From assembly GCF_003664645.1 (NCBI RefSeq), contig NZ_RCHC01000001.1, positions 124,001 through 188,000 of the forward strand: a stretch of 64,000 nucleotides of DNA. Reading direction: 5' to 3'. The notes under the pieces are model-generated. The model was not told the DNA's origin. It did not search any database and saw only the letters and a program-made list of their open reading frames with translations. Of this stretch, positions 22,650 to 27,322 are shown piece after piece. The stretch is from Acinetobacter chengduensis (GTDB taxonomy: Bacteria; Pseudomonadota; Gammaproteobacteria; Pseudomonadales; Moraxellaceae). The translations under genes and the position numbers were made by a program. Position 1 is the stretch's first letter. Each line of letters starts with the position of its first letter.

Positions 22650-23534
22650 TTAAAATAAATTGGGTAAACACACATGCAGTGTTAAGCCGTAAATTGAAAT
22701 AATCCCAGCACTGATAATCGTGCCAGACGCAATATATTTTGCAGAATGCCCAGTTCCTTGATAATGCGTTTCCAAGGCCACAATATTGGCGGCTGGAGGC
22801 AAACAAAAAAACATAAAAATGACAGCATAAATGAATAGATGATGTGGAATTGGTAACAGCAAATAAGCCCCTATGCAAATCAACACAGCTAAGCACATAC
22901 GGGCAATCATTATGATAAGACTACGTTGTAAATCACGCCAACCAATTCGAACCTTGCTTAGCCACATGCCCAGTACACACATCCCTGCAAAAGTGACCAA
23001 TATTTTATTCATTTGATAAACCCACTGCACCATTGGATGGTATTCGTATGCGCTCAAATCCCAAATAGAAAGTATGGCAACAATACTTAAAGCAATAACA
23101 GGTGGTGAAATCAGCACTTTTTTTAGAATAAAACTAACTTCTTTGGGAGCATCACTCACGGCCATGATGGCGCAAATATTACCAAACAGTGAGCCACCAA
23201 TATAAAGTGCAACAATGGTACTGCTGGCATTGGGCCCAAAAATGGCTAAGGCAAAAGGAAAGCCCAGCCATGCCCCATTTAAATAGCTAAAACACAATGC
23301 ACGTAGCTTGTCGCGTTGTAGCGCATAAAACACGGCAAAGAAAATAATTGAACTCACAAAGCTCAAACCAATCAACCAGATACTTCCGGGTTTATAAAAC
23401 ACCATGTTGTATACGATTAGTGCTGGTATGAACAATTTTGCCAGTGAGGCTGCCAATAATGCTCGTATGGCGTAGAGTCGATTTACGCCCCAGTAGCCCA
23501 CTAGAAATGACAGCAGTGGCAGTATAAGCACCAT
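22650..23534 (-). CDS. AEC-family (auxin efflux carrier type) transporter
   Basis: 294-residue inner-membrane protein with about ten hydrophobic segments, starting MVLILPLLSFLVGYWGVNRLY. The layout (two five-helix halves around a charged middle, with PALIVYNMVFYK in the first half and PPAANIVALETHYQ in the second, where the transport site lies) fits the bile/arsenite/riboflavin transporter-like AEC family. Bacterial members carry malate or other carboxylates; the substrate here is unknown. Divergent from tatA, with the tat Pho box in the shared 180-bp gap. Confidence 0.8.
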   Translation of the reverse strand: MVLILPLLSFLVGYWGVNRLYAIRALLAASLAKLFIPALIVYNMVFYKPGSIWLIGLSFVSSIIFFAVFYALQRDKLRALCFSYLNGAWLGFPFALAIFGPNASSTIVALYIGGSLFGNICAIMAVSDAPKEVSFILKKVLISPPVIALSIVAILSIWDLSAYEYHPMVQWVYQMNKILVTFAGMCVLGMWLSKVRIGWRDLQRSLIIMIARMCLAVLICIGAYLLLPIPHHLFIYAVIFMFFCLPPAANIVALETHYQGTGHSAKYIASGTIISAGIISIYGLTLHVCLPNLF

Positions 23535-23653
23535 AAATCAGCTATTTAAATCGGTCTAAAACCCTATGCTAGCACAAACATTCCATCGTGCTGCGCTTAT
23601 CCAGCCTATCTCTCTCATTCGCGTCCGCGCTGTTTCTTTGAACTGAAACCCAA

Positions 23654-23687
23654 CTGTCACATCTTTGTCATGCAGAACTGTTGCAAT
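23654..23687 (+). promoter_or_regulatory. PhoB box and promoter for tatABC
   Basis: CTGTCAC (23654-23660), 4 bp, TTGTCAT (23665-23671): two half-sites of the CTGTCAT Pho box at the required 11-bp period. Exactly 10 bp further is TGCAAT (23682-23687), a fair -10 with no -35, the layout of PhoB-activated promoters. It lies 28 bp before the tatA start. Confidence 0.72.
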
Positions 23688-23714
23688 GTTTAAAAATTAT
23701 ATGAGGAAGAAGAA

Positions 23715-23933
23715 ATGGCTGGATTATCAATTTGGCATGTACTGATATTTGCTATTGTCGTGATTTTATTATTTGGTACATCTAAATTAAAAAACCTAGG
23801 TAAAGACGTCGGCGGTGCAGTGAAAGACTTTAAAAAATCGGTCCGTGATGATGAAGCCGAACAGTCTAAACTACAAGAACCACGCACGATTGATGCCCAA
23901 GTTAAAACGACTGAAAGTTCTATCAAAAGCTAA
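23715..23933 (+). CDS. tatA: Sec-independent (twin-arginine) translocase subunit TatA
   Basis: 72-residue pore-forming subunit of the Tat system, which exports folded proteins. Structure is classic: one N-terminal membrane helix ([16 protein letters not shown]), the hinge [10 protein letters not shown], an amphipathic helix ([14 protein letters not shown]) and a charged tail. It has a good GAGGAAG ribosome site 7 nt upstream. First gene of tatABC, with 12 bp to tatB. Confidence 0.95.
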
Positions 23934-23945
23934 GAGAAATTCACT

Positions 23946-24386
23946 ATGCTCAATATTGGATTCACTGAGCTACTGTGCTTTGCCATTATTGCGCTTTTGG
24001 TTTTAGGCCCAGAAAAGCTTCCTGAAGGTGCGCGTTTTGCCGCCAAATGGTACGGCAAAATAAAGCGCTTTATTAGCAATGTGCAAAATGAGATTGATCA
24101 AGAATTAAAACTGTCTGAGTTTCGAGCCGAAGTGCAAAAAGAAATCGAACGCATGACTGAGTTAGAAAAACGCATGCAACAACAAATTGATGCACTGCGA
24201 CAAAACACCAACACCTCAGCCTTAGCTCAACAGACTCATCCCACGATTCAATCTACACCATATCACCTGCTCAACACACAGATTCCGAGTCCTTATTCAC
24301 GTTTACATCTGCAACAGCATTTTAAAGCCTTAGTTCAGATGCTTGAGGCTCAAACCACTGCCATTGAATTGAAGATTGCTGTATGA
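23946..24386 (+). CDS. tatB: Sec-independent translocase subunit TatB
   Basis: 146-residue receptor subunit that joins TatC to bind twin-arginine signals. The N-terminus (MLNIGFTELLCFAIIALLVLGPEKLPEGARFAAKWYGKIKR, read in two parts) has the glutamate in the helix and the LGPEKLP hinge that distinguish TatB from TatA, followed by a long amphipathic helix and coiled-coil to about residue 90. The tail is variable. Its stop overlaps the tatC ATG (ATGA). Confidence 0.94.
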   Translation: MLNIGFTELLCFAIIALLVLGPEKLPEGARFAAKWYGKIKRFISNVQNEIDQELKLSEFRAEVQKEIERMTELEKRMQQQIDALRQNTNTSALAQQTHPTIQSTPYHLLNTQIPSPYSRLHLQQHFKALVQMLEAQTTAIELKIAV

Positions 24387-25153
24387 ACGAATTGCCCGCG
24401 ACCTCAGTGAAAACTGAACACGAACAACTGGATCAAATGCCAGTCATGCAGCATTTAATTATTCTGCGCAAATATCTCTTTAAAATAGTGGCAGTCACAC
24501 TTTTTTTATTTTTTTGTTTATTGCCCTTTCGCAATTTTACATATCAATTGATGTCTGAGCCTTTGCGTCAACAACTGCCTGCATCATCGACCATGATTGC
24601 AACTGATGTCACCGCAACATTTATGGCACCATTTAAATTGAATTTATTTGTGGCACTCATGTTGGCCATGCCCTTTATTATTTATCAATTGTGGTCTTTT
24701 GTTCGCCCTGCACTCTATGAAAAAGAACGGCATTTAGCTATGCCCTTATTAATTGGCAGTATTGCTTTATTTTATCTGGGCATTGCCTTTGCCTATTTCA
24801 TTACCTTACCTGCAATTTTGCATTTTTTTATCAGTGTTTCACCTGAGTCGGTCGCACCCATGACCGACATTAATAGCTACTTAAGTTTCTGTTTAAAGCT
24901 GTTTTTGGTGTTTGGTCTCACCTTTGAAATTCCAATTATTACTTTGGTCCTGATATTAATTGGTGTGGTCAGCACACAAAGTTTAGTGGAAAAACGACGC
25001 TTTATTGTGGTGGGCTGTTTCTTTGTGGCAATGTTTGCGACACCGCCCGATGCGCTCTCGATGGTCATGTTGGCCGTGCCGATGTGGATGCTTTTTGAGC
25101 TTGGGCTTTTATTGGGTAAATTCCTAGAAAAACCGCAAAGTACAAACTCATAA
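24383..25153 (+). CDS. tatC: Sec-independent translocase subunit TatC
   Basis: 256-residue polytopic core of the Tat translocase, which recognises the twin-arginine signal. It has six predicted membrane segments, the N-terminal MQHLIILRKYLFK and first-loop P segment, and the FVRPALYEKER motif before the third helix with the conserved Glu. Last gene of the operon; the next gene on the strand encodes a Tat-signal phosphatase. Confidence 0.95.
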   Translation: MNELPATSVKTEHEQLDQMPVMQHLIILRKYLFKIVAVTLFLFFCLLPFRNFTYQLMSEPLRQQLPASSTMIATDVTATFMAPFKLNLFVALMLAMPFIIYQLWSFVRPALYEKERHLAMPLLIGSIALFYLGIAFAYFITLPAILHFFISVSPESVAPMTDINSYLSFCLKLFLVFGLTFEIPIITLVLILIGVVSTQSLVEKRRFIVVGCFFVAMFATPPDALSMVMLAVPMWMLFELGLLLGKFLEKPQSTNS

Positions 25154-25250
25154 TCCGTGCACTTACACGTTTTAATATTCAATTTATCTTGGCTGAATAC
25201 GCTCTTTATTTAAAGGGCGTATTTTTTTATCTTCAGCACTCATCTTTAAA

Positions 25251-25295
25251 CTGTCTTCATTTGGTCAAAAAACTGTCATTTCCCCTTTCTACAAT
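25251..25295 (+). promoter_or_regulatory. triple PhoB box and promoter for phoX
   Basis: Three half-sites at exact 11-bp steps: CTGTCTT (25251), TGGTCAA (25262), CTGTCAT (25273). TACAAT (25290-25295) follows 10 bp after the last. This is the spacing of PhoB-dependent promoters such as phoA. It lies 56 bp before the phosphatase start. Confidence 0.78.
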
Positions 25296-25351: not shown

Positions 25352-27322
25352 ATGACAGCCAATACACAACAGCCAAGCCGCCGTGATTTATTAAAATGGT
25401 TTGCAGGGATTCCCTTTTTACCTTTGGGTGCAATGAGCACAGCAGCAGCCCTATCAGGCTGTAACAGCAGTGATGACAGCACAGTGGTAACTCCACCTGT
25501 TAAACCTGCGAATTTGAAGTCAGCGACATTTATTAAAATGGATGCGCCAACCACAACAGCAGAACGTGCAAAAACAACAGTAGGTTCAAAGCTCAAAATT
25601 GAGTGGGATGATGCAACCTCTTCTGAATATAAATTGGGCTATGAAAGCTTTTTTGAAACGGGTGCTAAAGTCCCTAAATGGGGTGGCGGTGAAATTATTG
25701 CCGGTGGCTACTTTGATGCCAAAGGTCAGCCAATTATGGATGTCTCAGTACCTACATCTCCACGCCAATATTTTTCAGACTGTCCAGATGGTTCATCTTT
25801 AATTCAATTGGCAGATGCAAAAGTTGATGGTGTGAGTAATCCTGTATTCCACGTAGTGCAGTTTGAATATGCAACACAAAACCAAGCTGGCAAAAGTGAA
25901 TACGGCAACCTGCCATCCCCAATTGCAATTTTGACTTTAGATCAAGACCAAAAAACGGGTCATTTAGCACTGAAAAAGTACTATAACGTCGATACCTCAT
26001 CAGTACATGGTTTATGGATTACCTGTGGCGCAAGCATGTCGCCGTGGAATACGCATTTATCGAGCGAAGAATATGAGCCCGATGCTTTCGAACAAGACAT
26101 TGGTGGTCCAAGTCCAAAAGGAATTGGTAAAAACTTCTTTGGTGATGAAACAGCAGCCAAGCCTTATAACTATGGTCACTTGCCTGAAGTCATTGTGAAC
26201 AAAGACGGTAGCGGTACAATCATTAAACATTACTGCCTAGGCCGTATTTCACATGAACTTGTGCACGTAATGCCTGATAACCGTACTGTGATTATGGGTG
26301 ATGACTACACCAATGGCGGTTTCTTCATGTTTATTGCAGACAAAGAAAAAGACCTGTCTGCTGGTACATTATATGTCGCTAAGTACACCTCTGTTTTAAC
26401 CGAAACGACCACGGCACAAATCAAGTGGATTGAACTCGGCCACGCAACCAGTAAAGAAATTAAAGATATGGTGAATGTACAGAACATTCAACCAAGCGAC
26501 ATTATGGAAAGCTATCTTGATACTGACACCAACAAACCTGCGGATCTCAGTAGCTTTACCCCGATTATTTTAGCCAAGAAAAAGCTTTGGGTAAAAGTCA
26601 AACCAGGCATGGAAAAAGCAGCTGCCTTCTTAGAAACACATCGTTATGCCGCATTAAAAGGCGCAAGTATGGCCTTTACCAAAATGGAAGGCACAACAAT
26701 CAACATCAAAGATAAAGTCGCTTATTCAGCATTGGCCAATATCCAAGATTCAATGATTAAAGATGATGCTTCATGGGTTGCAGCGCATAATGTATCGTTC
26801 ACTAGTAAAATTACAGCAGGCGGTGTGCTAGCTCATGACCTTGCTGCTGCACAATACACTTTGGCTGGTCAGCCGATGAATAGTGAATGGGTACCGTATC
26901 AATCAAAAATGCTCTTAATTGGCGAAGATATTAAAGTGGACAGCTTAGGTAACACAGCAAATCCAGATAAAATTGCCAGCCCTGACAATTTAAAATTCTC
27001 TGAAACACTGCGTACGCTGTTTATTGGTGAAGATAGTGGCAACCATCCGAATAACTTCTTATGGGCCTACAATGTTGATACCAAAGTAGCACCCGTGCGC
27101 TTACTTTCAACACCAGCAGGTGCTGAATCTACAGGTTTACATGCGGTCGATTCTGTCAATGGTTGGACGTACATTATGAGTAATTTCCAGCACGCTGGTG
27201 ATATGAAGAGTTTATCTGCAGAGCTTAAAGCAGCCACTTTAGCCAATTACAACAATGGTTTTAGTGCAAGCGTAGGTTACTTAACTGCTGATTTAATTAT
27301 GCCATCGGTACAAAAGAAATAA
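25352..27322 (+). CDS. phoX: PhoX-type (DUF839) phosphatase with Tat lipoprotein signal
   Basis: 656-residue exported protein of the PhoX/DUF839 family, Ca/Fe-dependent phosphomonoesterases that release phosphate from organic esters. The N-terminus is a twin-arginine signal (SRRDLLKWF, Arg10-Arg11) leading to a lipobox-like ALSGC with Cys37, so it may be exported folded by Tat and then lipidated. The body has family-like segments such as GLWITCGASMSPWNTHLSSEEYEPD, RISHELVHVMPDNRTVIMGDD and FIGEDSGNHPNNFLWAYN near the C-terminus. It directly follows tatABC and has its own triple Pho box. Catalytic residues were matched only by eye. Confidence 0.88.
   Translation: MTANTQQPSRRDLLKWFAGIPFLPLGAMSTAAALSGCNSSDDSTVVTPPVKPANLKSATFIKMDAPTTTAERAKTTVGSKLKIEWDDATSSEYKLGYESFFETGAKVPKWGGGEIIAGGYFDAKGQPIMDVSVPTSPRQYFSDCPDGSSLIQLADAKVDGVSNPVFHVVQFEYATQNQAGKSEYGNLPSPIAILTLDQDQKTGHLALKKYYNVDTSSVHGLWITCGASMSPWNTHLSSEEYEPDAFEQDIGGPSPKGIGKNFFGDETAAKPYNYGHLPEVIVNKDGSGTIIKHYCLGRISHELVHVMPDNRTVIMGDDYTNGGFFMFIADKEKDLSAGTLYVAKYTSVLTETTTAQIKWIELGHATSKEIKDMVNVQNIQPSDIMESYLDTDTNKPADLSSFTPIILAKKKLWVKVKPGMEKAAAFLETHRYAALKGASMAFTKMEGTTINIKDKVAYSALANIQDSMIKDDASWVAAHNVSFTSKITAGGVLAHDLAAAQYTLAGQPMNSEWVPYQSKMLLIGEDIKVDSLGNTANPDKIASPDNLKFSETLRTLFIGEDSGNHPNNFLWAYNVDTKVAPVRLLSTPAGAESTGLHAVDSVNGWTYIMSNFQHAGDMKSLSAELKAATLANYNNGFSASVGYLTADLIMPSVQKK

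Follow-up and report, generated by a model that had tools for sequence, protein, structure and literature searches.

The tatABC operon and the adjacent phoX gene of Acinetobacter chengduensis very probably form two separate tandem transcription units, each with its own promoter and each activated by PhoB, with translocase and substrate being raised together in low phosphate, as far as can be judged from the DNA. The Tat pathway is usually regarded as a housekeeping one. Extended to the genus, the joint reading that we favor on balance is that the main, and usually the only, TatABC of nearly all Tat-bearing Acinetobacter belongs directly to the PhoB regulon regardless of phoX, that total folded-protein export, including that of phosphate-unrelated substrates, would therefore be set by the phosphate supply, and that this control has a single origin close to the base of the genus, with tatABC leaving a hisE-linked place for a Pho promoter of four half-sites with an extended -10. 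On exhaustion of phosphate, the cell would then probably step up production of both the Tat machinery and the phosphate-scavenging enzymes exported through it. The features concerned are listed below; coordinates are those of the window, i.e., the whole stretch of 64,000 nucleotides that was analyzed.

22650-23534, minus strand: divergent gene upstream of tatA
23632-23638, plus strand: tatA half-site 0, GTTTCTT, degenerate here (genus consensus, TTGTCTT), in the 11-bp register
23643-23649, plus strand: tatA half-site 1, CTGAAAC (genus consensus, YTG[A/C]AAT); pair score of 12 at 23643
23654-23660, plus strand: tatA half-site 2, CTGTCAC, from the half-site score and the alignment of promoters
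23665-23671, plus strand: tatA half-site 3, TTGTCAT, from the half-site score and the alignment of promoters
23679-23687, plus strand: tatA extended -10, TG-T-TGCAAT (in the genus, CTGTTGAGAT)
23715-23933, plus strand: tatA (PF02416; NF002813 equivalog over cut-off)
23946-24386, plus strand: tatB (TIGR01410 over cut-off)
24383-25153, plus strand: tatC (PF00902; TIGR00945 over cut-off)
25195-25234, plus strand: terminator-like hairpin between tatABC and phoX, with a 13-bp stem (25195-25224) and a T-rich tail
25251-25279, plus strand: phoX Pho box, with CTGTCTT (25251-25257), TGGTCAA (25262-25268), and CTGTCAT (25273-25279) at 11-bp steps
25290-25295, plus strand: phoX -10 hexamer TACAAT, 10 bp past the last half-site
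25352-27322, plus strand: phoX, encoding a PhoX-family alkaline phosphatase with a twin-arginine signal (PF05787 over cut-off)

The three translocase genes, all scoring over curated cut-offs, adjoin one another on one strand (23715-25153), and the TatC encoded in the window is 97% identical to that of A. cumulans. The phoX product, a predicted phosphatase of the family also called DUF839, scored 63.5 bits against PF05787 (cut-off, 24) and had no match in NCBIfam; the twin-arginine signal ascribed to it in the first-pass annotation is indeed carried at its N terminus, as the stretch SRRDLLKWF. Since the strong terminator-like hairpin (fold, -14.8 kcal/mol; z, -5.2) separates tatC from phoX, the possibility that phoX is expressed mainly by read-through from tatABC was rejected. 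The divergent gene, labeled "AEC" here, had no family in Pfam or NCBIfam at E 0.001.

Upstream of tatA, the box CTGTCAC-atct-TTGTCAT lies at 23654-23671 on the plus strand, and the hexamer TGCAAT (4/6 to TATAAT) lies at 23682-23687, exactly 10 bp past it, just where the first-pass annotation had placed both elements. At least two half-sites at 11-bp steps, a -10 about 10 bp on, and no proper -35 are the marks of a PhoB-type promoter, and a promoter scan found no sigma-70 -35/-10 pair on the plus strand upstream of tatA. In view of this absence, TTGTCA in the last half-site was rejected as a conventional -35; in addition, only 11 bp separate its end from the hexamer. The half-site score used throughout was fixed in advance; two perfect half-sites give 14, C is accepted at position 7, and T at position 1 earns half credit. 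The earlier description of the promoter as two half-sites was correct as to their presence but fell short of the whole, as across Acinetobacter the tatA promoter consists of four half-sites in an 11-bp register, which amount to two Pho boxes in tandem, followed by a conserved extended -10, in the order TTGTCTT-nAAA-YTG[A/C]AAT-ATAA-nTGTCAC-nnnn-YTGTCAT-6 bp-CTGTTGAGAT.

The conservation of this array was followed in 56 non-redundant tatA promoters (less than 90% mutual identity) taken from 83 flank-defined loci. Half-sites 2 and 3, together with the CTGTTGAGA that lies downstream, served as anchors of the alignment, hence these columns are favored; half-sites 0 and 1 and the spacers lay outside the anchoring objective, and the contrast between them stands. 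The mean information was 1.2, 1.5, and 1.7 bits per column in half-sites 1, 2, and 3, respectively, and 0.5 and 0.3 bits per column in the 4-bp spacers between them. Several half-site columns turned out to be 100% identical, while the spacers varied. Positions -33 to -27, the region of half-site 0, were strongly conserved, and so was the AAA in the first spacer of the array. The TG of the extended -10, an element favored by the anchoring, was found in 83 of 83 aligned loci; the hexamer 10 bp past the box is TGAGAT, a weak -10, in 45 of the 83.

At phoX, the three half-sites at exact 11-bp steps and the -10-like hexamer 10 bp past the last of them are likewise present as had been claimed. Conservation of this motif in orthologous promoters was also borne out: 26 of the 27 phoX loci align with three half-sites and, exactly 10 bp on, a hexamer matching TATAAT at four or more of six positions, the search having used the -10 match and the 10-bp spacing, so that those columns are favored. 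In the A. calcoaceticus-baumannii complex, the first and middle half-sites of the phoX box are weak, and the two-half-site score is 10.

We then determined how far the tatA box is kept in the genus. Among 99 Acinetobacter genomes searched, TatA was found in 90, which gave 113 tat loci (112 fetched regions plus the window). Irrespective of whether they had the box, these were classed as main loci (89, one per genome) or as paralogous loci (24). In 83 cases, a main locus was recognized by either of the two flanking genes expected, seen within the stretch covered; for the other six (L047, L048, L060, L061, L106, and L118), whose stretches show neither gene, the assignment rests on their being the sole tatA match of the genome and on their grouping with main loci in the TatC tree. 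Five loci classed as paralogous (L034, L087, L102, L121, and L125) lie near main loci in that tree, but their genomes have another locus with the expected flanks; in three paralogous loci the TatC match was too short for the tree, and one genome (G093) has paralogous loci only.

A Pho box, i.e., a score of at least 11 at 55 to 96 bp before the tatA start (threshold and range both chosen after the score table had been viewed), was present in 86 of the 89 main loci and in 0 of the 24 paralogous ones. The test set beforehand, conservation of the tatA motif in orthologous promoters, was thus passed, with the motif kept at a similar distance. The three main loci without a box by the threshold each scored 10.5, and one of them (L120), when inspected by eye, has four half-sites and a CTGTTCAAAT element. 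A paralogous locus (L136) has a site scoring 11.5, but 177 bp before the start. Among 80 named Acinetobacter loci, whose species overlap with the 99-genome set and which are not independent of it, the box was found in 75 of the 78 that could be assessed, the misses being L220 (a second copy in A. guillouiae), L256, and L258; species with the box include A. nosocomialis, A. pittii, A. seifertii, A. baylyi, A. junii, and A. lwoffii. The main locus is the only tatA match in 72 of the 89 genomes, and 70 of these 72 have the box.

The genome of the window itself has a second complete tatABC, on contig C22 (L034, 1-12000), with no Pho box and near a flavoprotein with an RR start; its other neighbors are presumably Dps-like, peroxiredoxin-like, and rhodanese-like genes. 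The whole resembles an accessory Tat island. A relative of this region is present in another genome (L121 in G088). In 9 of the 99 genomes (G015, G026, G030, G032, G050, G055, G077, G091, and G097), neither TatA nor TatC was found, PhoX also being absent from all nine, and the whole Tat pathway appears to have been lost in them; G030 is 65% complete, and G026 is 9% contaminated.

The box is kept independently of phoX. A protein related to the PhoX of the window was found in 35 of the 99 genomes, and phoX adjoins tat in 27 of the 89 main loci, within the stretch fetched. In genomes that gave no match to PhoX, the box is retained at 53 of the 54 main loci, and coupling to phoX was therefore rejected as its cause. 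Because the box persists where phoX is absent, the control belongs to the tatABC operon and not to its neighbor, and coupling of tatABC to the Pho regulon at large, rather than to phoX in particular, is supported.

The cognate regulator is encoded in the same genome: among 21 matches to the PhoB model, a single one exceeded the cut-off (331.8 bits; cut-off, 296.2). Its DNA-binding domain aligns without gaps with the E. coli PhoB structures 1gxp and 3t72, and its DNA-reading stretch, EDRTIDVHIRRLRK, differs from that of E. coli PhoB solely by I in place of V. The Pho motif occurs at two places before phoB, as several half-sites at 11-bp steps before pstS (best pair, 12; PstS was found with PF12849, TIGR00975 giving no match), and with a score of 11.5 at an olsB-type gene. 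Three further sites were observed. A phospholipase-C-like phosphoesterase (L304; PF04185) with the twin-arginine start MNRRDFLVNSS is preceded by four weak half-sites spaced at 11-bp steps, the first of which lies 239 bp ahead of the called start; it could be another Tat substrate of the Pho regulon. A gene for a DUF2057 protein (L151; contig C23, near 1011), possibly an unrecognized Pho gene, has 70 bp before its start the site TTGTCAT-aaag-CTGTCAT, which ranks among the best Pho-box matches in the genome. Finally, a Pho-like array of three half-sites, TTGTCAT-ataa-CTGTCAT-aaaa-CTTTCGC, is found about 4 kb upstream of the window (L146; contig C1, 120098-120115), about 261 bp before a methyltransferase-like gene.

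The tatA site, scoring 13.5, is the top of all positions on both strands of the 64-kb window, the next scoring 12.5, and in 60 shuffles of the 200 bp upstream, none reached the tatA score and about one reached that of phoX. An upstream score of at least 11.5 was found in 26 of 967 ORFs (2.7%) called mechanically in the 80 named loci (at least 120 aa), a null that includes phoX and that tatA is too short to enter. With the plain consensus and up to three mismatches, there were 9 matches in the window against 5.9 expected, and 14 of 100 shuffles reached 9; the whole genome has 44 Pho-box places at up to two mismatches, versus 13 in a reversed-pattern control. Thirty of the 44 were viewed in their loci, and many lie within reading frames or before genes without a known Pho link; no classical Pho gene was recognized behind these 30 except tatA, the phoB boxes being among the 14 other places and having been read from the phoB locus. 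Loose matches being common, such a match alone proves nothing, and the case must rest on conservation. That the tatA site is a chance match or an ancestral functionless sequence, a notion that draws on this very frequency of loose matches in window and genome, is hardly credible, as it is contradicted by half-site columns identical in all 56 promoters beside variable spacers.

A genuine box could also serve mainly the divergent upstream gene, or have been inherited with conserved flanks, with tatABC being constitutive. Many loci do have a divergent upstream gene, as here at 22650-23534, so that the sites lie between two starts. Yet the upstream neighbor of the main tatA varies (in some loci a HAM1-type gene, in some the divergent gene, with neither observed in the rest) while the box remains 55 to 96 bp from tatA, and both the orientation of the array and the extended -10 point toward tatA, which makes such an arrangement very unlikely. 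It is also very unlikely that another response regulator of the OmpR family, and not PhoB, binds the array, with tatABC answering a different signal. OmpR-family regulators often bind direct repeats, and only one of the 21 matches to the PhoB model is over the cut-off; however, the array follows the E. coli pattern of CTGTCAT-type half-sites with 4-bp spacers, and its motif recurs before phoB, pstS, and olsB. Pho control likewise fits the finding in PMC11828411 that genes of Tat export are induced in A. baumannii at low phosphate.

For activation by PhoB, a mechanism can be proposed in which, at low phosphate, phosphorylated PhoB would bind the half-site arrays head-to-tail just upstream of the (extended) -10 and substitute for the -35 element, and transcription of translocase and substrate would rise together. 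Since the box is kept without phoX, the purpose would probably be an increase in Tat capacity that serves a number of Pi scavengers exported by Tat (PhoX in genomes that have it, and perhaps phospholipase C and others). Some basal expression of tatA independent of PhoB is suggested by the conserved extended -10. It is PhoB binding, the PhoB dependence of tatA, its basal level, and the physiological purpose that we infer here.

Outside Acinetobacter, TatA was found in 90 genomes of 15 other Moraxellaceae genera, and the outgroup sample comprised 40 tat regions from 35 genomes of 12 genera, hand-picked to spread over genera and mostly with about 400 bp of upstream DNA. A box scoring at least 11 at 55 to 96 bp was absent from 36 of the 40 regions. 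The four others were three regions sharing one weak site in a single genus (g10) and one region (L270) from a genome with 7% contamination. An ancient, family-wide Pho control of tat was rejected on these counts. The box-like site common to the three g10 genomes (L264 to L266) lies 75 bp before tatA and could be an early or a decayed form of the Acinetobacter promoter. Nine further outgroup regions scored at least 11 at other distances, at least L271 to L273, L277, and L300 within the frame of an upstream hisE. A HisE-type motif is encoded upstream of tat in 29 of the 40 outgroup regions versus 0 of the 78 named Acinetobacter loci, three of the HisE-type fragments having been confirmed as PF01503, and in one g10 region (L265), the HisE motif occurs together with the weak site. 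The simplest history would be that, near the base of Acinetobacter, tatABC moved away from its place beside hisE and its Pho promoter was acquired or strengthened.

RNA-seq of A. baumannii in low phosphate (PMC11828411), in which 67 genes were upregulated, gave induction of genes of "TAT-dependent proteins export." In the passages considered, that paper describes a Pho box for olsB only, a gene induced by low phosphate whose aminolipid products the authors tie to PhoR. Its main text mentions neither tatA (0 matches) nor phoX. The induced Tat-export genes could be those of Tat substrates and not tatABC; the induction fits the prediction for tatABC and is not proof that tatABC rises. The wiring, in turn, offers a cause for this induction. 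The earlier proposal that phosphate starvation raises export capacity along with the exported PhoX is accordingly upheld in its Pho link, which is supported by the conservation in 86 of 89 main loci, the PhoB helix, the sites at phoB, pstS, and olsB, and the A. baumannii data, but not in its tie to phoX in particular, given the 53 of 54 loci. With the main Tat translocase tied to the phosphate regulator, export capacity would be regulated together with export demand, and it becomes testable whether unrelated Tat substrates are limited under plentiful phosphate.

E. coli PhoB promoters (phoB, pstS, and phoA) have direct repeats of the CTGTCAT type at 11-bp steps and a -10 about 10 bp downstream. 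The tatA promoter is like them in its half-site repeats and -10 spacing and differs in its target, a translocase, in its four half-sites, and in its extended -10. E. coli tatABC, the same three-gene translocase as that of Acinetobacter, was reportedly described as constitutive by Jack et al. in 2001. Titles and abstract openings, mostly of papers outside subscription journals, held no earlier description of Pho-box wiring of tatABC.

Phosphate starvation induces phoD and tatAd-tatCd in B. subtilis (PMC3068169 and PMC3827258), and the latter paper places DUF839 genes at tatCd loci of Bacilli. The two arrangements are alike in that a Tat translocase adjoins a phosphate-scavenging Tat substrate (here phoX, at 25352-27322), with starvation induction being known in B. 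subtilis and predicted in Acinetobacter. They differ in that the TatAC pair concerned in B. subtilis, as far as these sources go, is a dedicated second one, preceded by the substrate gene and additional to the constitutive TatAyCy, whereas Acinetobacter uses its main TatABC, with its own terminator-like hairpin, a separate phoX promoter, and a PhoB-type box of the proteobacterial kind; a second Tat beside a constitutive one is not the pattern here, 72 of the 89 main loci being in genomes with a single tatA match. Two TatC are apparently listed for A. calcoaceticus, A. oleivorans, and strain ADP1 in a table of PMC3827258. Because of the phoD-tatAdCd precedent, a phosphate-inducible Tat is of a known kind, and the first-pass description of Pho control of Tat as a notable wiring holds only insofar as PhoB-type control of the main TatABC is different. 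Acinetobacter would have reached a B. subtilis-like arrangement by a different route, and what sets it apart is the PhoB-type wiring of the main TatABC across a Gram-negative genus, in another phylum and with another site architecture than in B. subtilis.
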